A stretch of DNA of 31,039 nucleotides. Source: Desulfatitalea sp. (GTDB taxonomy: Bacteria > Desulfobacterota > Desulfobacteria > Desulfobacterales > Desulfosarcinaceae). This document shows positions 16,472 through 31,039 of this stretch, one piece after another. Within the stretch, counting starts at the first letter, position 1, and each line of letters starts with the position of its first letter. The notes under the pieces are model-generated. The model searched no databases. It was given only the letters and a program-made list of their open reading frames with translations, and was not told the DNA's origin. The DNA lies in NCBI GenBank assembly GCA_013041835.1, contig JABDRH010000594.1, positions 1-31,039 of the forward strand. The letters are read 5' to 3'. Position numbers and translations under genes: made by a program.

Positions 16472-16547
16472 GCGCTCGTAGCTCAGTGGATAGAGCACCA
16501 GCCTCCGGAGCTGGGTGCCGCAGGTTCGATCCCTGCCGGGCGCACCA
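16472..16547 (+). tRNA. tRNA-Arg, anticodon CCG
   Basis: A 76-base cloverleaf. The acceptor stem GCGCTCG pairs with CGGGCGC (one G-U). The D arm contains AGCTCAGTGGATAGAGC. The anticodon stem CCAGC/GCTGG encloses loop CTCCGGA, anticodon CCG at 16505-16507. The T arm contains GGTTCGATCC. The discriminator A is followed by an encoded CCA. It reads the CGG arginine codon. No integrase or duplicated 3' end is seen nearby, so there is no sign of use as an attachment site. Confidence 0.96.
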
Positions 16548-18449: not shown

Positions 18450-19637
18450 ATGATCGGAATTTCAAAGCTCTATTGCGGTTCAGTGGAGCCGTCCGATGCG
18501 TTGCGCTATGGAAGGCAATCCTCCCGGCTGCCCAGTCACCTGCTGCAATTTTCAAAAGATAAACGGCCGGTGGTCGTATGGAATGTAACCCGCGCGTGCA
18601 ACCTCAAATGCGTGCATTGCTATGCCCATGCCACTGACGATACGTCGGCCAATGAACTGACTACCCAAGAGGGCAAGGCGCTCATCGATGATCTGTCGGA
18701 CTTCGGCGTACCCGTACTTCTCTTCTCGGGTGGCGAGCCATTGGTGCGAAAAGATCTGCCCGAACTTGCAGCCTACGCCGTGAAAAAGGGCATGCGGGCG
18801 GTCATATCCACAAACGGCACCTTGATCAACGCTGACACAGCCCGAATATTGAAGCAAATCGGCCTTTCGTACGTGGGGATCAGCTTAGACGGCCTGGAAC
18901 CGGTAAATGACCGCTTCCGGGGCGTAAAAGGCGCTTTCCAAAAAGCCATGCAGGGCATTCGCAACTGCCAGGCGTCGGGCATCAAAGTCGGTCTGCGCTT
19001 TACCATCAACAAGCGCAATGTCAAAGAGATTCCCGGCATATTCGATCTTTTGGAAGAGATGGATATTCCACGCGTATGCTTCTATCACCTGGTCTACGCC
19101 GGGCGGGGCTCTGCCTTGCAGTCGGAAGATCTGACGCACGAGGAAACTCGGGCCGCCGTTGACTTGATATTGGATCGTACGCGCCAGTTGCATGACCAAG
19201 GCAAGCCTAAAGAGGTATTGACCGTGGATAATCATGCCGACGGCCCATACCTTTATATGCGGCTGCAAAAAGAAAACCCCCAACGGGCGGAAAAGGTACT
19301 CAATCTGCTTCAAATGAACGAAGGGAACAACTCGGGCAGGGGTATCGGTTGCGTCAGTTGGGACGGACAAGTGTACGCCGATCAATTCTGGCGTCACCAC
19401 AGTTTTGGAAATATTCGCAACAGACCCTTTTCCCAAATCTGGAGTGAGCCGCTCGATCCGCTGCTCAAGCAGCTCAAGGAAAAGAAAAAGTACGTCCAGG
19501 GGCGCTGTGCAACGTGTCGCTGGCTTGATGTGTGCAGCGGCAACTTTCGCGTAAGAGCGGAAGCCACCACCGGAAATGTCTGGGCACCGGATCCGGCTTG
19601 CTATCTGAGTGACGCGGAAATCGCCCAAACCCTTTGA
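18450..19637 (+). CDS. ahbC: AhbC-type radical SAM/SPASM protein: 12,18-didecarboxysiroheme deacetylase
   Basis: Enzyme of the siroheme-dependent heme pathway; in characterised homologues it removes the acetate side chains of didecarboxysiroheme to give Fe-coproporphyrin III. The 395-residue protein has the radical SAM cluster motif CNLKCVHC (C50, C54, C57), GGEP at 94-97, and a C-terminal SPASM-like region with GRGIGCVSWDGQVY, CATCRWLDVC and a last Cys near 384 for extra iron-sulfur binding. AAAGGA precedes the ATG. It is followed after 23 bases by hemB and then a second radical SAM gene, the same trio I recall from Desulfovibrio vulgaris. The related NirJ of heme d1 synthesis is the main alternative, but no other nir genes are present. 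Confidence 0.9.
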   Translation: MIGISKLYCGSVEPSDALRYGRQSSRLPSHLLQFSKDKRPVVVWNVTRACNLKCVHCYAHATDDTSANELTTQEGKALIDDLSDFGVPVLLFSGGEPLVRKDLPELAAYAVKKGMRAVISTNGTLINADTARILKQIGLSYVGISLDGLEPVNDRFRGVKGAFQKAMQGIRNCQASGIKVGLRFTINKRNVKEIPGIFDLLEEMDIPRVCFYHLVYAGRGSALQSEDLTHEETRAAVDLILDRTRQLHDQGKPKEVLTVDNHADGPYLYMRLQKENPQRAEKVLNLLQMNEGNNSGRGIGCVSWDGQVYADQFWRHHSFGNIRNRPFSQIWSEPLDPLLKQLKEKKKYVQGRCATCRWLDVCSGNFRVRAEATTGNVWAPDPACYLSDAEIAQTL

Positions 19638-19660
19638 CCCGTTTTCACCAAGGAGTAAAA

Positions 19661-20635
19661 ATGCTGTTTCCCGATTATCGCCCCCGCCGCATGCGAAAGT
19701 CCGATGCTTTTCGCCGCATGGTGCGCGAAACCCGACTCGATGTGGCGGACCTTATAATGCCCTTGTTTGCCGTCGAAGGCAAGGATACGCGACAGGCGAT
19801 CGCCGCCATGCCGGGACACTACCAGCTTTCCATCGATCATATCGTGAAGAAAAGCAAGGAAGCTTTTTCCCTCGGCGTTCCGGCAGTGATCCTGTTTGGT
19901 GTCCCGAAACGCAAAGACGCCCTTGCCACCGAGGCATATGCCAAGGACGGCGTGGTCCAACGAGCAGTAAAAGCAGTAAAAGAAGCCGTACCGGACCTGG
20001 CGGTCATTACCGACGTCTGCCTGTGTGCCTACACGGATCACGGCCACTGCGGGATCGTGCAAGGGCAAATCATTGATAACGATGCCTCGCTGGATTTGCT
20101 GGCCAAAACGGCCCTATCCCATGCCAAGGCGGGTGCGGACATGGTCGCACCTTCGGACATGATGGACGGCCGTGTTACGGAAATACGCAATGTTTTGGAT
20201 GAAGCCGACATGTCCCATATTCCGATCATGTCCTACGCCGCCAAATATTGCTCAGCTTACTACGGGCCATTCCGCGAGGCGGCCGACTCGGCTCCCCAAT
20301 TCGGAGACCGACGTACTTATCAAATGGACCCGGCCAACGCCCAGGAGGCGATCCGTGAGGTCGCCATGGACGTAGAAGAGGGCGCCGATGTGGTGATGGT
20401 CAAGCCAGCCCTCGCCTACCTCGACATTATCCGTCGTATCAAGGACGAGGTGGATCTTCCCGTAGCAGCGTACAACGTAAGCGGAGAATACGCTATGATC
20501 AAAGCCGCCGCGGAGCGTGGCTGGCTGGATGGCGATGCCATCATGATCGAAACGCTTACCGCCATCAAGCGGGCCGGAGCAGACATGATCCTGACCTACT
20601 TTGCACTGGAAGCCGCCCATTTATTGAATGCTTGA
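19661..20635 (+). CDS. hemB: Delta-aminolevulinic acid dehydratase (porphobilinogen synthase)
   Basis: Condenses two 5-aminolevulinate molecules to porphobilinogen, an early shared step of tetrapyrrole synthesis. The start at 19661 has AAGGAG at a spacing of five; the ATG nine codons upstream overlaps the end of ahbC and has no such site. The protein has 324 residues. DVCLCAYTDHGHC contains the three zinc-binding cysteines (C120, C122, C130) of the zinc-dependent class. The two active-site lysines are expected in SYAAKYCSAYYGPFR and VMVKPALAYLDI. It sits between ahbC and ahbD, so precursor supply and late heme steps are co-expressed. Confidence 0.97.
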   Translation: MLFPDYRPRRMRKSDAFRRMVRETRLDVADLIMPLFAVEGKDTRQAIAAMPGHYQLSIDHIVKKSKEAFSLGVPAVILFGVPKRKDALATEAYAKDGVVQRAVKAVKEAVPDLAVITDVCLCAYTDHGHCGIVQGQIIDNDASLDLLAKTALSHAKAGADMVAPSDMMDGRVTEIRNVLDEADMSHIPIMSYAAKYCSAYYGPFREAADSAPQFGDRRTYQMDPANAQEAIREVAMDVEEGADVVMVKPALAYLDIIRRIKDEVDLPVAAYNVSGEYAMIKAAAERGWLDGDAIMIETLTAIKRAGADMILTYFALEAAHLLNA

Positions 20636-20669
20636 ACGCACAAAGCGCTGAAGACAAAGGCGACCCGAC

Positions 20670-21782
20670 ATGCACCATCGCCCCACAAAGCACCAGGTAA
20701 ACAATACCGAGCCGCGCCGGCCGGATAGCGATGGCGAACGGCCCCCGCTTCGTCTGGTCGCTTGGGAGACCACGCGCAATTGCAACTTGTCCTGCGTACA
20801 CTGCCGGGCATCCGCCACTTGCGGTCCATATACCGGCGAATTGGATACCGACGCCGCTCTGACCTTGCTCGATCAAATCGCCAGAATCGCACGGCCCATC
20901 GTAATCCTGACCGGTGGCGAACCCTTACTGCGTCCAGACATCTTCGACATTGCCCAATATGGTACGGACAAGGGCCTGCGCATGGTCATGGCGCCCAACG
21001 GCACGTTGGTGAGCGGAAAAATCGCGGAAAAGATGGCACAAACCGGCATTAAGCGCATCAGCATCAGTCTCGACGGCGCCACGGCTCAATGTCATGATGC
21101 CTTCCGCGGCGTTAGCGGCGCTTTCCACGGAGCGCTGCAAGGCATTGAAAATGCCAGGGCAGCCGGTATTGAGTTTCAGATCAACACCACCATTACGAAA
21201 ACCAACCTTGATCAAATTCCACTCATTCTCGATTTGGCCGAACGGTTAGGCGCCGTCGCCCACCATATCTTTCTTCTCGTACCCACCGGCCGAGGCAAAT
21301 ACATCATCGATCAGGAAATCGACGCCCAGGCGTATGAAAAAACCTTGAACTGGTTCTATGACCAACGTGAAAAAACAAGCCTGCAACTCAAGGCTACCTG
21401 CGCACCCCACTACCATCGCATTCTGCGGCAACGGGCCAAAGCGGAAGGCAAGGCCGTCACCTTCCAATCCCACGGCCTGGATGCGGTAACACGGGGTTGC
21501 CTGGCCGGCAGCGGCTTTTGCTTTATTTCCCACCGCGGCATTGTTCAACCGTGCGGCTTTCTTGACCTGAACTGTGGTGATGTGACCCAACAGGATTTTG
21601 CCGAGATCTGGTTGCACGCAACTCACTTTAAACGCTTGCGTGACAGCAACCAGCTCAAGGACAAATGCGGCTGCTGTGAGTACCGCAATGTTTGCGGCGG
21701 ATGCCGGGCGCGAGCATACGAAGCCACGGGAGACTACCTGGCAGCCGAACCTTTGTGCCAATACACCCCCAAGTCCGTCTAA
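20670..21782 (+). CDS. ahbD: AhbD-type radical SAM/SPASM heme b synthase
   Basis: In homologues it oxidatively decarboxylates the two propionates of Fe-coproporphyrin III to vinyl groups, giving heme b. The 370-residue protein has the cluster motif CNLSCVHC (C38, C42, C45), GGEP at 82-85, and a C-terminal SPASM-type cysteine cluster in CGCCEYRNVCGGCRARAYEATGD, with further cysteines in RGCLAGSGFCFI and QPCGF. Residues 1-27 form a polar lead. It resembles ahbC in the core but has a distinct C-terminus. It lies 34 bases after hemB. The start ATG has a weak ribosome site, so the exact N-terminus is moderately certain. Confidence 0.9.
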   Translation: MHHRPTKHQVNNTEPRRPDSDGERPPLRLVAWETTRNCNLSCVHCRASATCGPYTGELDTDAALTLLDQIARIARPIVILTGGEPLLRPDIFDIAQYGTDKGLRMVMAPNGTLVSGKIAEKMAQTGIKRISISLDGATAQCHDAFRGVSGAFHGALQGIENARAAGIEFQINTTITKTNLDQIPLILDLAERLGAVAHHIFLLVPTGRGKYIIDQEIDAQAYEKTLNWFYDQREKTSLQLKATCAPHYHRILRQRAKAEGKAVTFQSHGLDAVTRGCLAGSGFCFISHRGIVQPCGFLDLNCGDVTQQDFAEIWLHATHFKRLRDSNQLKDKCGCCEYRNVCGGCRARAYEATGDYLAAEPLCQYTPKSV

Positions 21783-22690: not shown

Positions 22691-23614
22691 GTGATCCGGA
22701 ATCGGCACATATTTAAGCAATGGTTCGGCACGTGCCTGTGCTTGATGCTATGTTCGGGTCTTTGCTCGGCAGCCGTCTTGAAAGACATCCGAATAGGTGA
22801 ATACGAAGAATTCACACGAATTGCATTTGAACTGGACACCCATGCCGGCGCGGGCCGTATTGAATCCACTCAGCGCGATAAGGTGCATGTCATCTTTCCG
22901 CACACTCGACCCGAGCTGATTCGCAAAATAGCGGTCGAAAACAGCCGCAACATCCTTAACATCAAAATCCTGTCTGACAATCAACAACTCGAAATGATCC
23001 TTGAGTTGGCATCGCTTCATGGGAAAGTGGCTTTTTTCACCATGCAAGATCCACATCGTATGGTGGTGGACATCTATTGGACGATGCCTAAATCCGACTC
23101 ACCGTCTACCGAAGCTGCCATGACAAAACAGATGGAAACAAAGCCGCCAGAGCCGCGGCAAGCTGAATCCATCCAGCCCGAAGGTGACGCGGCACCGCCC
23201 GCGGGCGTCAGGCCACAGATTATGCCGCCACCAGCCTCGGCAAAGGGACCCAAGGCAAGTCAACCGCCTTCGCAAACGATGCCATTGACTCCCAGCACAC
23301 CTGTTTCCGAAAACGAGATGGCGCCGGCAGACAGCTCTCTGCCGGCCGATCGTGACATTTCCCGTCCACGGACAGATTCCTCCGTTGGCTCTCACAAGGC
23401 ATTGCATCGCACCAACTGGCTTGAATACTACCTGGTGATCACGTTGGTGATCATCACTATTGTCATCCTCGGTCTATTGGTACTTATGTTGCTCACCAGG
23501 CATCATGTTCATAAAGATATGTGGTGCGGACCGTCAGACACCAAAGACGCTGTGAACGATCCGGAAGCGCAGCTTTCCCCTATCGATGCCAAGCATATTG
23601 GAGACCCCCTATAA
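22691..23614 (+). CDS. Secreted/membrane AMIN-like domain protein with Pro-rich linker and C-terminal membrane helix
   Basis: Not a named gene. The 307-residue protein begins with a signal peptide (about 1-28: positive NRHIFK, hydrophobic LCLMLCSGLCSA). It is followed by an AMIN-like fold (about 29-130; VLKDIRIGEYEEFTRIAFEL through DPHRMVVDIYW) of the kind found in amidases and pilus secretins that bind the cell wall. A Pro/Ser-rich linker (about 135-235) follows, then one strong membrane helix (about 243-269) and a polar tail of about 38 residues. The layout predicts a periplasmic domain anchored from its C-terminal side. The start is GTG with only a weak ribosome site. It is followed by a PilZ-fusion gene two bases after the stop, indicating coupled expression. 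An envelope-to-c-di-GMP role is inferred from that. Confidence 0.75.
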   Translation: MIRNRHIFKQWFGTCLCLMLCSGLCSAAVLKDIRIGEYEEFTRIAFELDTHAGAGRIESTQRDKVHVIFPHTRPELIRKIAVENSRNILNIKILSDNQQLEMILELASLHGKVAFFTMQDPHRMVVDIYWTMPKSDSPSTEAAMTKQMETKPPEPRQAESIQPEGDAAPPAGVRPQIMPPPASAKGPKASQPPSQTMPLTPSTPVSENEMAPADSSLPADRDISRPRTDSSVGSHKALHRTNWLEYYLVITLVIITIVILGLLVLMLLTRHHVHKDMWCGPSDTKDAVNDPEAQLSPIDAKHIGDPL

Positions 23615-23616
23615 TC

Positions 23617-24759
23617 ATGAAGCTGTCCATAAATGCACCTGAGGCGCACCAATTCAGTGTCTTGCAGCGCCTTTTTGACAACCGCTTGAGCATTAATTCA
23701 CCCGATGAGTTCAACGACATCCTGGCCATATACAAAGACGACCCCTTCCTTTATCGCAAGTATGCGGATCTGCTGCTTCGTCTGAGCCGCCGGGAAGAAG
23801 CCACCATATCTTATGCAACGGCCGCCAATTTGTTTATCGAAAAAGGCATGAACCTGCAGGCCATTGTCGCCAAGATGATTCAGTGGAGCGTTGATAAACC
23901 CACCCACGATGAGGGACGCGATTTTCATGCACGCCTTCACGGCGAGGGCAGCCGTCAGACGCCATTACAGCGTTTCTGGTCCAGCATGAAGTATGCGGAA
24001 ATGGTTGCCTTCATGCGACGCCTGGCACTGGTTCGTTTGCCAGCCGCACAGATCATTGCCCGTGTGGATGCACCGGTGGAGGACCTGTTCTTCATCGTCT
24101 TCGGGGCCTTGGCGGAAATGCCCTCACCTGAATGTCAAAGCGAAGCACAGCGTGCGGGAAAGGAGATCGATCCCTTGCTGTTGGGGCCCAACGATGTCTT
24201 CGGAGACATCATTCCATTGCAGCGAAGCAATACGTCGGATACGGAAATCCGAACGCTTTCAGACGTTGAACTGGTAAAAATCGCCAAACCCGTTCTCGTT
24301 GACCTATCGCAAAAATATCCAAGAATTGAATCCCTGCTCATCGACCTGTATAAACCTGAAAATAGGGAAATGTGTGAGCGTAAATGGCAGACTGTAAGGC
24401 GGGCCATGCGCTATGGCCTGCCCACTGAAGTTTCGATCGAGATCGCCGGCAATGAATCGCTGCCCCAGGAGATGTCTTTGACCGGTTGTGCCGTCGATTT
24501 ATCCCTGACGGGTATGTGCGTCGACCTGGATAGGGATGTGCCGAAGGAAAACGATTTAAAAGGGCAATGGATATCCATTAAAATGGAATTGATGCATGAC
24601 GTGGTGCTCCTGAATCTAACGGGCAGGATCGTGTGGCAGCGACAGGCGGAAAAATCAAAAACTACTATTGGTGTGCATTTTGACACACTCAATCCCATGG
24701 ATCGGGAAATACTTTCGGAATACTGTTCAGGTCATGTCGGCGAACAGTACCTGTTATAA
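23617..24759 (+). CDS. Cyclic-nucleotide-fold (degenerate) plus PilZ domain protein
   Basis: Putative c-di-GMP effector of 380 residues. Residues 1-110 are helical (TPR-like look, KYADLLLRLSRREEA). About 125-235 resemble a cyclic-nucleotide-binding beta-roll (IIARVDAPVEDLFFIVFGAL, then FGDIIPLQRSNTSDTEIRTLSD), but the phosphate-binding cassette lacks the usual Arg-Thr/Ser-Ala arrangement, so cAMP binding is doubtful. From about 258 there is a PilZ domain with RRAMR (RxxxR) and DLSLTG (D-x-S-x-x-G), both needed for c-di-GMP. The start ATG lies two bases after the upstream AMIN-protein stop. A longer in-frame extension from 23521 overlaps that gene and is not favoured. Function not recognised beyond domains. 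Confidence 0.8.
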   Translation: MKLSINAPEAHQFSVLQRLFDNRLSINSPDEFNDILAIYKDDPFLYRKYADLLLRLSRREEATISYATAANLFIEKGMNLQAIVAKMIQWSVDKPTHDEGRDFHARLHGEGSRQTPLQRFWSSMKYAEMVAFMRRLALVRLPAAQIIARVDAPVEDLFFIVFGALAEMPSPECQSEAQRAGKEIDPLLLGPNDVFGDIIPLQRSNTSDTEIRTLSDVELVKIAKPVLVDLSQKYPRIESLLIDLYKPENREMCERKWQTVRRAMRYGLPTEVSIEIAGNESLPQEMSLTGCAVDLSLTGMCVDLDRDVPKENDLKGQWISIKMELMHDVVLLNLTGRIVWQRQAEKSKTTIGVHFDTLNPMDREILSEYCSGHVGEQYLL

Positions 24760-24762
24760 GGG

Positions 24763-24837
24763 CCTCGTCAAAAAGCCCATACGTGCTAACCCAATTGAAA
24801 TCGGCGACCCTAAGGTCAATTAATCTTTTTGATGAGG
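24763..24837. repeat. Imperfect 13-bp inverted repeat at a convergent gene junction
   Basis: CCTCGTCAAAAAG (24763-24775) and CTTTTTGATGAGG (24825-24837) pair in 13 positions (one G-U) across a 49-base loop. The right arm is inside the last codons of the minus-strand PilZ gene. It may act as a transcript-end structure for both converging genes. Confidence 0.55.
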
Positions 24838-25409
24838 GTATTGAGAATGTCACGCTGGTAATCCGTTATCTGCTCATACTGAACACCGATACCATCCGGG
24901 TAAATCCTTTTGACCCGACCCTGAATCTTAAACGGCACCGAATCATTGGCCTCCGACAGTATAAAACATAGGGCGATTTCCTGGCTGACATCAAAATGTT
25001 CCGCGGTTTCAATGAAAACACCATCTGCGCTGATATCTCGGATGCAACTGCGGTAAGCCTTGCCATCGGCGGCGTAGTCGACAAGTAAAAAGCAAGACAG
25101 CCGGGGATACTCCCGAACCCAGCGATAATCCGGGCCCTTTAATACACGCAAACATTGCAGAAGGCGCTGTGCGTCCAAGGACCTGATCACCGTAAAAATC
25201 CGGCCGATAATCATTTGCCGGCGCAAGGTATCGTTTGCCTGCACAGGAAGTTTGGCCAGAAAGCTGTCTACCTGATTTTCTTTAATTTCGGAAGCTTGCG
25301 CCAATGCCTCAAGCAACATGGCGAGTTGTTGATCCTGCATTTTATAGATGGATTCGGCCAAACGCAGGACGATGGTGTGCTTTTCAATTTGATCGGCTGT
25401 ATAGGCCAT
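24816..25409 (-). CDS. PilZ-domain protein
   Basis: Likely c-di-GMP receptor of 197 residues. The N-terminal 100 residues are helical (DQIEKHTIVLRLAESIYKM and following), with no recognised family. The C-terminal PilZ domain has REYPR (RxxxR) and DISADGVFIET (D-x-S-x-x-G), both c-di-GMP contacts. The ATG at 25409 has GAGG nine bases upstream; in-frame ATGs at 25424 and 25481 have no such site. The gene is single and converges with the cyclic-nucleotide-fold/PilZ gene. The protein could be a flagellar, pilus or transcription effector; the sequence does not say. Confidence 0.85.
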   Translation of the reverse strand: MAYTADQIEKHTIVLRLAESIYKMQDQQLAMLLEALAQASEIKENQVDSFLAKLPVQANDTLRRQMIIGRIFTVIRSLDAQRLLQCLRVLKGPDYRWVREYPRLSCFLLVDYAADGKAYRSCIRDISADGVFIETAEHFDVSQEIALCFILSEANDSVPFKIQGRVKRIYPDGIGVQYEQITDYQRDILNTLIKKIN

Positions 25410-25591
25410 CGGCCGGTTCCTCATCCGCGCTATACGATGAAGCAACGGGCTGCAAGGTGCAGCAGCGTGCGCAGTTGCCACATGGTTGCGGCCATTGTAA
25501 AGTTCTTATCTATATCGCATACTTGCCCATTAAAGCAAGCTGCAAATTCACTGCGGGGGATTGTGCCAAGTGTGGGAACAGCGCTTTTTGT

Positions 25592-25979: not shown

Positions 25980-26384
25980 TTGTCCTATATACTTGATCAA
26001 GAACAGTTGGATGGTATTGAGGAGGTCTTGCAAAAGGACTTGATGGACCTTGGTCTAAAGTGTGTCATTCTCATTGATATGGCTGGTAATATCATTGCCA
26101 ATCTGGACAATGGACAGGTCGGTCACGATGTCTATTCGTTGGCGGCATTGGCTGCGGGCAACTTCGGTGCAGTGTGCGCCATGGCTGCTATCATCGGAGA
26201 AGACGATTTTGCCCTTCTTTTCCATAAAGGCAAAAATGAGAATATCCATTTCAGCAAGGTAATGGATGATTTCTTGCTTGTCACCATATTTGGGAACGAC
26301 GTTTCTTTAGGGTACCTACGCCTGAAAGTTGAAGAATCCATCGGAAAAATCAGGAAAATTTTTGAAACCACCAAAAAAGTATAG
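25980..26384 (+). CDS. Roadblock/LC7 (MglB-like) domain protein
   Basis: 134-residue protein of the roadblock/LC7 fold, which in bacteria usually forms dimers that regulate small GTPases of the MglA type. The fold is suggested by LDGIEEVLQKDLMDLGLKCVILIDMAGNIIA, then ALAAGNFGAVCAMAAIIGEDDFALLFHKG and the strand FLLVTIFGNDVSLGYLRLKV. The start is TTG at 25980, supported by a strong AAAGGAGG seven bases before it. It is first in a set with the MglA-like GTPase 64 bases downstream, matching the mglB-mglA order of Myxococcus. GAP-like activity toward that GTPase is inferred. Confidence 0.85.
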   Translation: MSYILDQEQLDGIEEVLQKDLMDLGLKCVILIDMAGNIIANLDNGQVGHDVYSLAALAAGNFGAVCAMAAIIGEDDFALLFHKGKNENIHFSKVMDDFLLVTIFGNDVSLGYLRLKVEESIGKIRKIFETTKKV

Positions 26385-26448
26385 GTGGAGCGGCAACGGA
26401 CCGTTTTTTCGATTGTGAACGTTACCAACTTCAGGCGAGGATTCCCGC

Positions 26449-27057
26449 GTGGCGGTTATCAACATTCGAACAAAGGAAGTGCAGGTCAAAATCGTGTATG
26501 TCGGACCTGGGCGTGGTGGGAAAACCACCAATTTGGAGTTTATCTTTCAACATATTAGACATCGAATTCAGTCTGATATGGTGAGTATCAAAACCCACGG
26601 CGACAGGACGCTATTTTTCGACTTCCTCCCATTTGATCTGGGGCAGATCCAAGGCTACAAAATCAAAACACAGCTTTATACGGTTCCGGGTCAAGTGAAA
26701 TACAACGCCACTCGAAAACTGGTCTTGAAGGGCGTGGATGGCATTGTATTTGTGGCTGATTCAATGGAAGTCATGCGCGAGAAAAACATAGTTGCCATGG
26801 AGAATCTTGTCGAGAATCTATCTCATTATGATATTGATATTTATGACAAATTTCCAATCATCCTGCAATACAACAAACGCGACCTTGCCGATGAAGACGT
26901 TGCCCTGCTGGACATTGAAACCATGGAATCGGATCTGAATGCGAAGCTTAAGGCACCTTTTTTTGAAGCCAGCGCAGTAAAAGGCAATAATGTCATCGCC
27001 ACGGTAAAAAAGGCGATATCCACCACCATTGTATCCATACAGGATCATCTGGCATAG
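26449..27057 (+). CDS. MglA-like small Ras-family GTPase
   Basis: 202-residue GTPase close to MglA, the polarity switch of Myxococcus gliding and pilus reversal. The P-loop is GPGRGGKTTN (19-28), DRTLFFDFLP at 52-61 contains Arg53 and Thr54, TVPGQVKY at 78-85 contains Gln82, and NKRD lies at 142-145. By alignment from memory, Arg53 and Gln82 are the intrinsic arginine finger and catalytic Gln of MglA, and both are kept. The P-loop differs: MglA has Leu-Cys where this has Arg22-Gly23. The start is GTG with GCGAGG upstream. The roadblock gene precedes it, and the next ORF starts 10 bases after its stop. Confidence 0.9.
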   Translation: MAVINIRTKEVQVKIVYVGPGRGGKTTNLEFIFQHIRHRIQSDMVSIKTHGDRTLFFDFLPFDLGQIQGYKIKTQLYTVPGQVKYNATRKLVLKGVDGIVFVADSMEVMREKNIVAMENLVENLSHYDIDIYDKFPIILQYNKRDLADEDVALLDIETMESDLNAKLKAPFFEASAVKGNNVIATVKKAISTTIVSIQDHLA

Positions 27058-27067
27058 GAGGTCTGGA

Positions 27068-27778
27068 TTGGATAAGTCAGCCAAGTCAAAACTGGTTAAC
27101 GATATTGAAAATCGATTGGACGATTTTTTCGAGGAATCTACCCCTTCTCAACCCGCCTTACCATCTTCACCACCTTCACCATCCTCGCCATCCTCACCAC
27201 CGCCCTCACCATCCTCGCCACCCTCACCATCCTCGCCCTCGAATTCACTTGAGCAGCTCAAATCCGCCGTATTATCGATCGATTGGGAAATCACCGACGA
27301 GTGCTTGGCCGATTTGATTAATGAAACCGATGCCCTGCTGCCCCACTTTGAAAAAGATCCGATTACCCATGCCCTGCTGCGCATGTTGCGGGCCTTGGGT
27401 CGCTATGTTCGAAAACGCAAAGCGCAGGCTCATCAGGATGCCATCAATCGCGTCATGTCTGTTTTCAGCAGCCTGGAGACATTGGTCAACGACCAGAATA
27501 TGGACGAGAACCAAAAGAGACGGATCGTTTCCAAAGAGATATTGGCGTTTAAGCTTTTAAAAGAGCAAATCGATACAAAACGAAAAGCAGCGCTAACCAT
27601 GCCATCGGTCAAGGATGGCCAACCGCCGACACCATCCGACGTAGCCGAACTATTGGCTCACGACAAATTCAAAGAGGCCATGCAGGCCGTTGAAATTCGT
27701 CTGAATGCCGAAGTTGCTGAACTAAAGGCACGCCTTGCAGCAATGCAAATGGATTTGGATAATATGCGCAAGTCATAA
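27068..27778 (+). CDS. Hypothetical helical protein with Ser/Pro repeat linker
   Basis: 236 residues, TTG start at 27068, with AGGAGG (overlapping the mglA-like stop) six bases before it. Residues 1-18 are a short charged helix (KLVNDIENRLDDFFEE). About residues 24-57 form a low-complexity Ser/Pro stretch. Then comes a helical domain (SLEQLKSAVLSIDWEITD through GRYVRKRKAQAHQDAINRV, about 60-165) and a C-terminal coiled coil (AEVAELKARLAAMQMDLDNM). I have an impression of similar LDWEIT-type helical proteins near chemotaxis genes in other deltaproteobacteria, but cannot confirm it. Its coupling to the GTPase suggests a partner or adaptor. Function unknown. Confidence 0.8.
   Translation: MDKSAKSKLVNDIENRLDDFFEESTPSQPALPSSPPSPSSPSSPPPSPSSPPSPSSPSNSLEQLKSAVLSIDWEITDECLADLINETDALLPHFEKDPITHALLRMLRALGRYVRKRKAQAHQDAINRVMSVFSSLETLVNDQNMDENQKRRIVSKEILAFKLLKEQIDTKRKAALTMPSVKDGQPPTPSDVAELLAHDKFKEAMQAVEIRLNAEVAELKARLAAMQMDLDNMRKS
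27163..27243 (+). repeat. Short tandem repeats encoding the Ser/Pro linker
   Basis: Degenerate 9-base units of the type CCATCCTCA / CCACCCTCA / CCATCCTCG repeat about nine times in frame, coding for Ser-Ser-Pro and Pro-Ser-Pro steps. Such tracts can change length by slippage while keeping the frame. Confidence 0.8.
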
Positions 27779-27908
27779 TGTCGGTTATCGGATCCGGAAT
27801 GAAATACTTATTCCCATGGTCGTTTTATTCTAAACAGTTCCGCTAAGCGCTTTTTTAAAACCAACCTCACTATAAAGCTCATCCATGGCTATATCTTTTG
27901 CGACTTAC

Positions 27909-27930
27909 CCCCGATGTTACAACATTGGGG
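27909..27930. terminator. Hairpin directly after parA, between convergent genes
   Basis: CCCCGATGTT and AACATTGGGG form a 10-bp stem (one G-U), directly next to the parA-like stop. Neither strand has a proper T run after it, so factor-independent termination is uncertain. Confidence 0.45.
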
Positions 27931-28863
27931 TTACATCTTAAGGGATAGAATCTCCTCAGCCAGGCGTAGATATTGGCGTCCGGCGACGCTTTGCGGGTTG
28001 TACGCCAGTACCGGCATACTCATAATCTGCGCCTCCCGAATGCGTGCATCCATTTCAATCAGTGTGTCAAAGCTCATGTTGGGATAAAGCTTATTGAGTT
28101 TCTTATAGATCATTTCGGAGGCCGCGTTCTCCTTTTCGAACATGGTTACCAATATCCGTGAATTGATATCAGGATTGGTTTTCGCTTTGATTAACTGAAT
28201 CAGCTTGAGGATCTGATCGACACCATGTGTGGACAAATAGTCGCATTGACTGGGAATCACCACCAAATGCGCTGCGGTGAGTGCATTGAGCGTGAAAAAC
28301 TCAATGGATGGCGGCGTGTCGATCAGGATATAGTCGTACTGATCCTCAATGGGCAATAGCCGATCTTTGAGGATGAACTCGAAATTTCTCGCACCGAAGT
28401 ACCGTTTATTCAACATCACCATATTCTTGTTGGAGGGAAAAAGCGAAAGGTTCTTATATTGGGTCTGCCGAACAAACAGCTCGAAGTTTTGCGAATCGCT
28501 GTTCAAAAGATCAATAAAAGAGGGTGTCGCCTTGAATCCTAGAGAAATTGTCAAATTGGCCTGAATATCAAAGTCGACCAGCAACACTCGCTTTTTGTTC
28601 AAAGCCAATGAAAGTCCGAGGTTCAAGCAAGTGGTCGTTTTGGCCACCCCGCCCTTCTGATTGCTGATTGCGACCACATTCTTCAGCGCATTTCTCTGTT
28701 TGGCCTCAACCAGGTTGAGAAATCCGATTTGTCCAACCCTAACCGGCTGGTATGCTGAGAAAACATGCAAACATTTGGTACATCGGGCGATAAAAGCAGG
28801 CTCCTGAACGAGCCGCTCCTGAAGGTCGTAATGGGTTTTGCAGTTAGGGCACACAACGATCAT
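27931..28863 (-). CDS. ParA/Soj-family ATPase with N-terminal zinc ribbon
   Basis: 310 residues. Residues 1-35 form an MJ0042-type zinc ribbon (CPNC at C5/C8 and CTKC at C28/C31, with HYDL and VFSAY around them). From about 60 there is a ParA ATPase: deviant Walker A KGGVAKTT (70-77) with signature Lys70, VLLVDFDIQANLT, Walker B ILIDTPPS, and the typical C-terminal end AGRQYLRLAEEIL. ParA-like ATPases place chromosomes, plasmids or protein arrays; those beside che genes (ParC, PpfA) position chemosensory clusters. There is no parB or parS nearby. It follows cheA and a tiny ORF, so a role in placing this CheA array is likely. The zinc ribbon fusion is unusual for that group. Confidence 0.88.
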   Translation of the reverse strand: MIVVCPNCKTHYDLQERLVQEPAFIARCTKCLHVFSAYQPVRVGQIGFLNLVEAKQRNALKNVVAISNQKGGVAKTTTCLNLGLSLALNKKRVLLVDFDIQANLTISLGFKATPSFIDLLNSDSQNFELFVRQTQYKNLSLFPSNKNMVMLNKRYFGARNFEFILKDRLLPIEDQYDYILIDTPPSIEFFTLNALTAAHLVVIPSQCDYLSTHGVDQILKLIQLIKAKTNPDINSRILVTMFEKENAASEMIYKKLNKLYPNMSFDTLIEMDARIREAQIMSMPVLAYNPQSVAGRQYLRLAEEILSLKM

Positions 28864-28887
28864 TTGCAGGTCCCTCTCTAATCTGCC

Positions 28888-29013
28888 TCACGCGCAGAGT
28901 CGCCGCATGACGTGAACCATGTCTTTGGGGTCGAACAGCTCAGCTAACAATTCCACACGTTCTTCCAATTCAATGGGTGTGGATTGACATTTCCCGTCAT
29001 AAGTGGTCAGCAT
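28888..29013 (-). CDS. Small 41-residue ORF overlapping cheA end
   Basis: Starts at an ATG at 29013, overlapping the cheA stop (ATGCTGA), and ends 24 bases before the ParA-like gene. The peptide is charged and helical (PIELEERVELLAELFDPKD, then MVHVMRRLCA) with two cysteines. There is no clear ribosome site, so translation would depend on reinitiation after cheA. Its size, phase and fit between two genes suggest a real small gene, but no homology is recognised. Confidence 0.5.
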   Translation of the reverse strand: MLTTYDGKCQSTPIELEERVELLAELFDPKDMVHVMRRLCA

Positions 29014-31039
29014 TTATTTTGAAGCATGGACATATGGAAGACTTCGGCCACATCCAGAATCAATGAAATAGAACCATCACCTAAAATGGTTGCGCCGCAA
29101 AAACCACTTTTCTCTTGCAGATAGTCTTCCAGCGGCTTGATCACGACATCCTCCTTGCCTTGTAGTTGATCTACAATCAGGCCGACTTGCCGATTGCCCG
29201 TACGGACGACAACAATGAAATGCTCTTTAGCATCCGTTTGCGTGTCGGCAATTTTGAAAATTCGGGCCAGCCGGATCAGTGGCAAGTTGGTTTCACGCAG
29301 ATCATAAACTTCCATATCCTCGAGAGTAAACACATCCGCGGTACCGATTCGGATGGTTTCATCCACGGCAGACAAGGGGATGGAAAACTGCACCCCGGAC
29401 ACTCGCACCATAAGGGCCTGGATAATGGCCAGCGTCAGCGGTATTCTGATGCGAATCATGGTCCGTATTCCAGGCGTACTTTCGATCTTGATCGTTCCGT
29501 TGAGCCTTTCGATGTTGTCCTTGACAACATCCATTCCCACACCACGTCCAGAAGTATGAGTAACCTCTTCAGAAGTAGAGAATCCGGGCCGCATGATGAT
29601 TTCCAGGATCTCTTCTGTGCTCATAGCAGAAAGTTCTTCGGGCTGGACGAATCCATCTTGGATGGCCTTGGCCTTGATCATCTCAGGATCAATGCCCCGG
29701 CCGTCATCGCTGATCTCAATGACCACAGAGTTGCCTTCGTGGTAGGCATCCAGATGTACCGTACCGGACTCCGGCTTTCCATTACGCCGGCGCTCCTCGA
29801 TTTCTTCAATGCCATGGTCTACGGCATTGCGGATGATGTGTACCAATGGATCGGAAATTTGCTCAATGACCATCCGGTCCAGTTCGGTCTTTTCCCCATG
29901 AGTTTCCAAGGTCACTTGTTTGCTTATGTTACGCACCAATTCATGAACCACGCGCGGATAACGGGAAAAAAGGTGAGTGATAGGCAACATGCGCATCTTC
30001 ATGACATTTTCCTGAAGTTCGGCAGCAACCCTGCTTAAGGAGACGGTCGCCTCATTAAGCCGATGGGTCAGCTTTTTAACGGGTTGCATCTCTTTGATGT
30101 CCAACCGCTGCCTTTGTTTGAGCATGAGTTGCAGTTCACGCATCTCCTCAAGCATCTGGCTGAAACCGGCACGCATCACCACCAATTCTCCTACTTTGTT
30201 CATGAGCATATCGATCTTGCCAGCTTCTACGCGGATGCTTTGCTTGATCAGTCTTTCCCTGGTCGTATCCGTTTGCCGCCGTCCAGGATAAATTTGACTG
30301 GGGTGCTGCTCATCACCGATAGACCTCAAGCCTTCCTGAGAAGATTTCTTGCCGGGTTTGTCCAACGGTTTGGGCAACAACATCGACTGCCATGGTGCAT
30401 CCTCTAATTTGCCATCCGAAAAAAGCCAGGATTCGATCTCACGATCCGTCGACCACGAAACCGGTTCATCGGGGATCTCTGTTCCTTCTGAAAGCATGCC
30501 CTTGAATAGCTCAATCTCCTCTTCGGAGAGCAAGGATGAATCTGCCAAACCGACCAGGTTGGCGTCAAAGGCGTTCTCGAGTCGCAGGAGCAGGCTTTGC
30601 TCCTGATCGATGTCGGCGGTTTGGGTGCCATCAAAAGATTCAGTGTCTACCTGTGTATAGGCTTCCGTGGCTTCAGTGATGGCCGCAAGACGTGATGTCA
30701 AATCTTCGATTTCGGCTTGCGCTTCGTATTGAGCAGCCGCATGATCAACCATCAATGCAGTGTCCCCGTGGCTGACGCGCTCTGAGACCGATGTCGCTTC
30801 GAAAGCTCCGAGAGCCACTTGAACCAGTGGCTCATCCTCGCCGGGAGACGCTTGCTGTTCAATGAATGCTTGTGCCGACACGAGAAGCGCCTGTACAGAC
30901 TCGATTTTTGGGAAAAAGCTGGCAACGCGGCGCATATTGTTCCATGTCACTTCATCGGCAAAAAGCATCCAGTCCACGGACTGCCCGTTGTTGTGTTGCT
31001 CAGTCGCCTGTGACACCGATTGGGACCACAGGCCATACA
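29007..31039 (-). CDS. cheA: Chemotaxis histidine kinase CheA (partial, N-terminus outside window)
   Basis: Sensor kinase core of a chemosensory array. The frame is still open at the right edge; a GTG at 31016 could start it, but the phosphotransfer (Hpt) domain is not in the visible part and probably lies beyond. Counting residues from that GTG: variable region 1-245 (with an acidic segment around 160-200), dimerisation helices from about 255 (DMLMNKVGELVVMR), kinase N box HIIRNAVDHGIE (393-404), G1 DDGRGID (437-443), F box RPGFST (476-481), G2 GRGVGMDVV (490-498), and a CheW-like domain from about 535. All ATP-binding boxes are intact. Downstream lie the 41-residue ORF and the ParA-like gene. 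No MCP, cheW or cheY is visible here. Confidence 0.93.
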   Translation of the reverse strand, partial: YGLWSQSVSQATEQHNNGQSVDWMLFADEVTWNNMRRVASFFPKIESVQALLVSAQAFIEQQASPGEDEPLVQVALGAFEATSVSERVSHGDTALMVDHAAAQYEAQAEIEDLTSRLAAITEATEAYTQVDTESFDGTQTADIDQEQSLLLRLENAFDANLVGLADSSLLSEEEIELFKGMLSEGTEIPDEPVSWSTDREIESWLFSDGKLEDAPWQSMLLPKPLDKPGKKSSQEGLRSIGDEQHPSQIYPGRRQTDTTRERLIKQSIRVEAGKIDMLMNKVGELVVMRAGFSQMLEEMRELQLMLKQRQRLDIKEMQPVKKLTHRLNEATVSLSRVAAELQENVMKMRMLPITHLFSRYPRVVHELVRNISKQVTLETHGEKTELDRMVIEQISDPLVHIIRNAVDHGIEEIEERRRNGKPESGTVHLDAYHEGNSVVIEISDDGRGIDPEMIKAKAIQDGFVQPEELSAMSTEEILEIIMRPGFSTSEEVTHTSGRGVGMDVVKDNIERLNGTIKIESTPGIRTMIRIRIPLTLAIIQALMVRVSGVQFSIPLSAVDETIRIGTADVFTLEDMEVYDLRETNLPLIRLARIFKIADTQTDAKEHFIVVVRTGNRQVGLIVDQLQGKEDVVIKPLEDYLQEKSGFCGATILGDGSISLILDVAEVFHMSMLQNKC

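Follow-up and report, generated by a model that had tools for sequence, protein, structure and literature searches.

The 31,039 bases analysed here (the window) make up the whole of contig C172 (JABDRH010000594.1) in a draft genome of Desulfatitalea sp. (G000; 4.32 Mb, 693 contigs, 86.9% complete). Toward the end of this contig two gene sets converge, separated by 152 nt. The forward set consists of a roadblock protein, an MglA-like GTPase and a helical Ser/Pro-rich protein (together, the trio), and the reverse set of CheA, a small open reading frame (ORF) and a ParA-family ATPase with an N-terminal zinc ribbon (ZnParA). An earlier note on this DNA had described the arrangement as a candidate composite system, and the genes that it named are all present, clearly above the level of chance. 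The trio and the che operon form a genuine conserved neighbourhood at the level of the family and are neither a coincidence nor peculiar to this contig. However, the direct adjacency of the two halves in the window stems from gene loss; linked relatives have ABC genes in between. A function common to both halves is plausible, with the zinc ribbon as a concrete candidate link; as in the earlier note, it is something that we infer.

Thirty genomes of the family were sampled, and linkage was scored where an orthologous GTPase (63–100% identity class) and a full-length ZnParA were both present, as they are in 22. The halves lie within 6 kb of each other in 17 of the 20 genomes with placement determined; G011 and G018 were left out of this denominator because their contigs end at the expected junction between the halves. 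In 16 linked genomes both halves share one contig, 0.9–5.8 kb apart, and in G004 the helical gene and part of MglA sit at the edge of the ZnParA contig. The linked genomes span three genera (eight in g1, two in g3 and seven in g4). Every one of the 16 linked relatives has ABC-transporter genes between the halves; the genome of the window is without them. The relatives of G000 are Desulfatitalea-like, and its GTPase is 81–84% identical to the counterpart in three Desulfatitalea loci. Neither half was found in G007, G008, G013 and G434.

Two genomes from different genera, G005 and G023, served as a synteny control over 200 kb each around the locus (185 and 178 ORFs). This comparison gave 19 reciprocal best hits. 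Thirteen are collinear, and all of these fall in an island bounded by the ribbon CheB and the radical-SAM gene. Among the rest, hemB adjoins the island in inverted orientation, a two-gene run is shifted by about 25 kb, and three pairs are scattered. The two PilZ genes that the earlier note had attached to the group are part of the same conserved block in relatives. That note had also named a different ParA among the che genes as a sign of coincidence; in the loci read, the ParA of the che operon is this zinc-ribbon type throughout. A reading of the grouping as mere coincidence, from the 80 best GTPase loci scored with the window's proteins only, was weakened by wider contexts and by identification of the neighbours in other families.

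The window's MglA carries the P-loop GPGRGGKTT, the sequence DRT (in DRTLFF) with an arginine beside the G2 threonine, TVPGQ and NKRD. The defining marks of Group 1 MglA proteins are the G3 sequence TVPGQ and an arginine that adjoins the conserved threonine of G2 (PMC4316618). Both features are present here, and the best PDB matches are MglA structures. The roadblock protein qualifies as an MglB, with a Robl/LC7 domain, a position beside mglA and MglB as its nearest solved relatives, and the roadblock proteins upstream of MglA in relatives are 51–98% identical to it. It scores 55 of 200 bits, under the cut-off of the NCBIfam equivalog for Thermus-type MglB. The helical protein consists of an N-terminal RLDDFF motif, a Ser/Pro linker, a core with an invariant WEI (73–75) and a long C-terminal helix. 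Fold searches place CheA P1 at or near the top (rank 1 in VIA-align; Foldseek with no E-value under 0.001), a level that is reached by chance among helical bundles. Sequence and profile searches gave no support for a phosphotransfer protein, and core helix 2 has no conserved histidine where P1 has one in a rough mapping by helix order, not residue alignment. The three genes are assigned to an MglB–MglA(Group 1)–adaptor trio, in which MglB is predicted to act as GTPase-activating protein. Most family genomes also hold a second MglA paralog, 55–59% identical to that of the window; in L207, L208 and L214 it is adjoined by a protein of ~390 amino acids resembling the DUF4388 protein.

ZnParA belongs to the ParA/MinD family, with K70, G71, G72, V73, K75, T76, D97, D99, D177 and D182 each conserved in at least 97% of 28 sequences. 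We take these residues to be the deviant Walker A box (KGGxxKT, with its signature lysine), Walker A' and Walker B. Among solved structures it matches Soj (1.8e-39), and all four ribbon cysteines are kept in 28 of the 28 aligned proteins. The che operon of relatives reads Zn-Rec-CheB (with ribbon and receiver), CheW, a receiver-only protein, CheA, DUF4388-Rec-CheB, Rec-CheB and ZnParA. The receiver-only protein was recognised by BLAST, with no Pfam scan, in most loci reaching that far. Full-length CheA frames are about 1180–1670 amino acids, and Rec-CheB is missing in g4 loci. Beyond ZnParA there often follow a HAMP protein and a TauE-type exporter (checked with Pfam in L185 and L188 only), and then an ABC permease, ATPase and NMT1-type binding protein. 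Wherever the che operon was read, ZnParA is part of it, also in five loci of family f65, outside the order. A search of a phylum draw of 395 genomes at E 1e-50 found it at full length in four f65 genomes besides G000. A fifth copy runs off the end of its contig, and another three matches are confined to the ATPase part. The five f65 loci have the che genes in the same order, with ABC genes in four. A ribbon-adjacent motif of ZnParA (21/22 with the trio, 0/6 without it, 0/61 in other ribbon proteins) was noticed post hoc and is confounded with ancestry, and it is not used as evidence. The MglA of f65 genomes (L209–L213) has a proline-rich C-terminal extension of roughly 120–170 residues with a similar end segment in all five.

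In other families, N-terminal ribbon proteins of several architectures recur beside the trio. The 73 GTPase loci outside the Desulfatitalea-like genus group (L046–L118) come from the best 80 GTPase matches, and many of them are short; the roadblock gene is present in 71 of the 73 and the helical gene likewise in 71. A recurrent run beside the trio consists of a protein of ~155 amino acids, a membrane protein with an N-terminal zinc ribbon and a C-terminal HAMP domain (ribbon-HAMP), DUF4388 proteins, a receiver-DUF4388 protein and a PilB-like ATPase. A hidden Markov model (HMM) of the ribbon, seeded partly from loci later scored, was run on L046–L118, leaving out the linked and unlinked family genomes of L119–L138 and L196–L206. 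A ribbon protein lies at most 8 kb from MglA in 58 of the 73 loci; among the 55 loci whose downstream sequence reaches 4.5 kb or more, this holds for 50. With L071, L083 and L094 left out, the 526 kb downstream contain 50 ribbon genes and the 505 kb upstream none; as a control, 354 kb of DNA from G005 and G023 contain 1. The check from outside the HMM was Pfam at E 0.001, which found PF13717 in 47 of 61 ribbon proteins, HAMP in 40, FHA in 14 and ParA in 3. The four cysteines are invariant in all 61. Other models found DUF4388 proteins near MglA in 41 of the 73 loci and a PilB-like gene near the trio in 30 of the 73, one of which (L092) was checked with Pfam. A second ribbon-ParA, only 28–29% identical to that of the window, lies 4.4–5.4 kb upstream of MglA and co-directional with it in three loci: L071 and L083, assigned in their records to Desulfobulbaceae, and L094, assigned to Deltaproteobacteria. 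The ribbon-HAMP protein of L064 was searched in nine f1 genomes. It is present in G015, with partial matches in G014 and G011; G000, G005, G002, G012, G023 and G022, which have the trio beside the ZnParA operon, gave none or weak partial matches (22–29% identity). A variant cluster of Robl-MglA-Robl-helical genes followed by a small ribbon-FHA protein, with one MglA and two roadblock proteins, occurs in L046, L056, L060, L062, L063, L066, L073, L074, L076, L081, L085, L103 and L113.

A known relative of this ribbon gives it a candidate role. PDB entry 7zok, 'Adventurous gliding motility protein X' (AgmX), has a zinc ribbon in PF13717 (53.9 bits; cut-off 30.3). AgmX is GltJ (PMC3169522), and GltJ is listed among MglA effectors (PMC12288465). 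Like the ribbon of 7zok, that of ZnParA falls in PF13717 and has the CxxC..CxxC pattern; GltJ is a membrane protein of the gliding machine, whereas here the ribbon is fused to ParA. The contacts of GltJ with MglA-GTP and MglB reportedly involve the ribbon region. Because this PF13717 relative is an MglA effector, the ribbon may serve as a plug between MglA/MglB and ParA/CheB. The recurrence of ribbon proteins of several kinds beside the trio suggests, short of proof, a zinc tag that links partners to the polarity switch. That the N-terminal ribbon docks ParA and CheB, and hence the che array, to the MglA/MglB switch has in our estimate not far short of an even chance. Counted in its favour are the linkage in 17 of 20 genomes, the collinear island of G005 and G023, the constancy of ZnParA in the che operon, the CxxC..CxxC N-terminus of CheB in that operon, the ribbon proteins and PilB-like genes near the trio in other families, the second ribbon-ParA and the Pfam family shared with the AgmX/GltJ ribbon. 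A broader claim is put more tentatively, at rather less than even: the MJ0042/PF13717 ribbon would be a general docking tag of MglA/MglB modules across Desulfobacterota, fused to two ParA types, CheB, HAMP/Cache sensors and FHA proteins near the trio, and would plug positioning, chemosensory adaptation and phospho-recognition into one Ras-like switch.

In the proposed mechanism the ribbon would be the docking part that joins ParA and CheB, and elsewhere HAMP sensors and FHA proteins, to MglA/MglB. With MglA-GTP gathered at a single pole, ZnParA would be recruited there or released, and would tie the CheA array to that pole. Chemosensory signals would feed back on the polarity of MglA, in the manner of Frz in Myxococcus. 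Type IV pili would be the likely output machine, and the helical protein the scaffold of the trio. We infer the binding, the polar recruitment, the feedback of CheA on MglA and the pilus output from sequence.

Several observations weigh against this coupling. The two sets are not one operon, since they are convergent here. They lie apart in G006 (a congener) and in G014 and G015 (two other genera), where the neighbour of the trio is not the ABC–che block. The trio occurs without a ZnParA match in G019, G024 and G435, and ZnParA without that GTPase in G021. The sole MglA match of the f65 genomes (E 1e-20) is of another type, with the C-terminal extension, and lies on another contig. Window-type ZnParA was found in none of the 73 GTPase loci L046–L118 (locus DNA only, many loci short), and the link between trio and ZnParA is seen in one family only. 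The earlier note would have taken the grouping as coincidence had the halves not been found together in related genomes; they are, in 17 of 20 placements. The island also holds hemB/radical-SAM genes, which have no evident connection with the rest, ABC, PilZ and, in some genomes, Trk genes; because it includes the hemB/radical-SAM, ABC and Trk genes, kept gene order alone is no proof of shared function. Five long loci (L049, L059, L089, L095 and L097) are without a ribbon protein, and the 50 of 55 are not 50 independent events because the loci share ancestry. One ribbon-HAMP protein scores below the Pfam cut-off (29.7 vs 30.3), as do the CheB ribbons of three proteins for PF13717 (26.1, 22.7 and 16.8 bits vs 30.3). 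In the search with ZnParA, 7zok is a weak match (E 0.19) and ranks below two ribbons unrelated to it. The PF13717-type ribbon is a widespread domain.

A rival explanation is two independent modules that are neighbours by ancestry, with ZnParA placing the array in a ParC-like manner, the trio running pilus polarity and the island a relic of an ancestral arrangement. The separate occurrence of each module, the metabolic and transport genes of the island and the confinement of the link to a single family are in favour of this explanation, which we consider possible at somewhat under even. Two facts count against it. Outside the island only the one two-gene run and the three scattered pairs survive in 200 kb between G005 and G023, and other families repeatedly have ribbon partners beside the trio, the second ribbon-ParA among them.

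The che operon of the window's genome is a pared-down version of that in relatives. Its CheA is truncated because the window is a whole contig; the part present carries HIIRNAVDHG, DDGRG, GFST and GRGVGMD. The Hpt-bearing N-terminal part of a CheA is found at one edge of contig C532, together with CheW and a CheB whose N-terminus has the CxxC..CxxC pattern. C172 is therefore probably the neighbour of C532, with the break inside CheA. The small ORF, which the earlier note had counted as a gene of its own, was rejected as a new gene. Its residues 22–41, in the C-terminal half, match the last 20 residues of the DUF4388-receiver-CheB of L124, and relatives have this gene intact at the same place. 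Local scores against DUF4388-Rec-CheB in nine relatives are 46–87, each above its own 300-shuffle maximum (38–47); scores to CheB are 26–31. The order CheA, small ORF, ParA, trio was likewise rejected as ancestral, since relatives have extra genes between. The Rec-CheB, HAMP, TauE and ABC genes are absent at the expected place in this genome. In the assembly as a whole no ortholog was found of Rec-CheB (best 32% vs 92% in control G005), of DUF4388-Rec-CheB (best 29%, over the CheB part) or of the substrate-binding protein (found at 79% in control G010). C532 has no receiver-only gene between CheW and CheA, and its ribbon CheB (L190 1137–1925) is without the receiver domain of the Zn-Rec-CheB of relatives. 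The receiver-bearing genes of relatives are therefore missing from the operon pieces of G000, and CheA retains the Hpt histidine and kinase motifs. Further upstream on C532 are a sigma-54 response regulator and a hybrid kinase, both with receivers. A cNMP-binding-DUF4388 protein adjoins the ribbon CheB on C532 (L190).

These losses could mean that the che half of G000 is a decaying remnant, with the receiver-bearing genes, CheB and DUF4388-CheB gone, CheA and ZnParA going and only the trio at work. The relic ORF in place of DUF4388-Rec-CheB, the three orthologs not found and the missing receivers on C532 are consistent with decay, and so are the terminal branches of CheA (0.39) and ZnParA (0.33), which exceed those of eight congeners (at most 0.22 and 0.19); those of MglA and Robl are not longer. 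However, terminal branch length depends on the closeness of the sampled sisters, and by root-to-tip distance CheA stands out (1.31 vs 1.13–1.20) but ZnParA does not (1.04, range 0.93–1.18). CheA, CheW, CheB and ZnParA have uninterrupted frames and keep conserved motifs, the Hpt histidine among them, and the gene overlaps are tight (4 nt for CheW/CheA, 7 for CheA/relic). In an assembly that is 87% complete a lost gene could also sit in a gap; a receiver fragment at the end of contig C203 (44% over 82 residues) belongs to another che cluster. Decay is unlikely. The mixed result from the branch lengths, which tells to some degree against a working composite system here, indicates that constraint on the trio and on the che half may differ in G000. 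That the short junctions of the window are an assembly artefact joining non-adjacent sequences is very improbable: the assembly is a draft of 693 contigs with a break inside CheA, which has repeated Hpt units in relatives, but several separate losses fall on two contigs, the relic lies in place with the right C-terminus, three lost genes have no ortholog elsewhere in the assembly, and some relatives, too, lack the MinD-like gene or Rec-CheB at this position. The CheA of L124 (2215–6891) has three Hpt domains, and the contig break of the window falls near that part.

The locus has partial counterparts in known systems. In Myxococcus xanthus MglA/MglB is acted on by a chemosensory system, with type IV pili and gliding as output (PMC4316618, PMC10329633, PMC12288465), and mglA is described as not near its partner genes (PMC4316618). 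Like the Frz-MglA/MglB/RomR system, the present locus has a Group 1 MglA with MglB; unlike Frz, the che operon of linked relatives adds ParA and further CheB proteins. FrzE is a CheA-CheY fusion, whereas by Pfam the CheA of L124 and the CheA part in the window are without a receiver. In the Vibrio ParC/ParP system, which localises chemosensory arrays, the ParA-family ATPase is encoded in a che operon (PMC5706961). ZnParA resembles ParC/ParP in gene order, as a ParA-family gene within a che operon, and differs from ParC in bearing a zinc ribbon. In annotated loci ZnParA has Rec-CheB or DUF4388-CheB on its upstream side and HAMP/TauE or ABC genes on its downstream side; no parP-like (CheW-like AIF) gene was seen beside it there, with no AIF profile used and a very divergent AIF possible. 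We take DUF4388 to be the PATAN domain, in which case the DUF4388 proteins near MglA recall MglA-PATAN neighbourhoods. PATAN genes are occasional neighbours of Group 1/5 mglA (Wuichet 2014, after Makarova 2006; PMC4316618), in an account whose treatment of these neighbourhoods mentions neither zinc-ribbon proteins nor a complete che operon next to mglA. A literature search of titles and abstract openings, with few subscription papers, found no description of an MglA-che-ParA locus or of a zinc ribbon with MglA.

Crosstalk between a chemosensory array and a Ras-like switch has been worked out mainly in Myxococcus, where the partner genes are dispersed from mglA. A conserved locus that joins MglA/MglB, an adaptor, CheA and a positioning ATPase opens this question to genetics in bacteria other than myxobacteria. 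Should the ribbon prove to be the plug, a short and easily expressed domain would explain how one switch serves different machines, and further MglA effectors could be predicted from sequence alone.

Table 1. Features of the locus in the window, and the second ribbon-ParA of three other loci
Feature	Position	Strand	Matches and remarks
MglB-like roadblock protein, 134 aa	25980..26384	+	Pfam Robl_LC7 1.3e-6; MglB structures 2.6e-18
MglA, Group 1 type, 202 aa	26449..27057	+	Pfam Ras 6.4e-10; MglA structures 6e-51
Helical Ser/Pro adaptor of the trio, 236 aa	27068..27778	+	TTG start behind AGGAGG; no Pfam family
Zinc-ribbon ParA (ZnParA), 310 aa	27931..28863	-	Pfam AAA_31 3e-51; che-operon member in relatives
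Zinc ribbon of ZnParA, C5-C8-C28-C31	28753..28863	-	Zn_ribbon_4 PF13717, 1.2e-9, 38.3 bits (cut-off 30.3)
Relic, 41 aa, C-terminus of DUF4388-receiver-CheB gene	28888..29013	-	Intact gene here in relatives
CheA, C-terminal 676 aa, ends at contig edge	29007..31037	-	Pfam H-kinase_dim, HATPase, CheW
PilZ protein of conserved block, divergent from trio	24816..25481	-	Relative present at the loci of at least 10 linked relatives
PilZ protein, start uncertain	23521..24759	+	Weak cNMP-binding match, 25.2 bits (cut-off 27.5)
Second ribbon-ParA	L071 4669-5568; L083 2082-2975; L094 3709-4641		Run with ribbon-HAMP and receiver-DUF4388 protein

Between the two PilZ genes many relatives have a gene for a MinD-like ATPase (e.g. 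L124 18125–19051), which is missing from the window between 24759 and 24816. This protein is a further ParA/MinD family member on the trio side. Scans of the window gave 10 promoter-like sites against 6.2 (standard deviation 2.3) in shuffles and 4 terminator-like sites against 3.8, with no site of either kind in the spacer that separates the convergent genes. The sole RNA gene found in the window by Rfam and ARAGORN is a tRNA-Arg (CCG) at 16472–16547. A hemB-like gene flanked by two radical-SAM genes occupies 18450–21782, and this block, a possible alternative haem pathway, adjoins the trio in many g1–g4 relatives.

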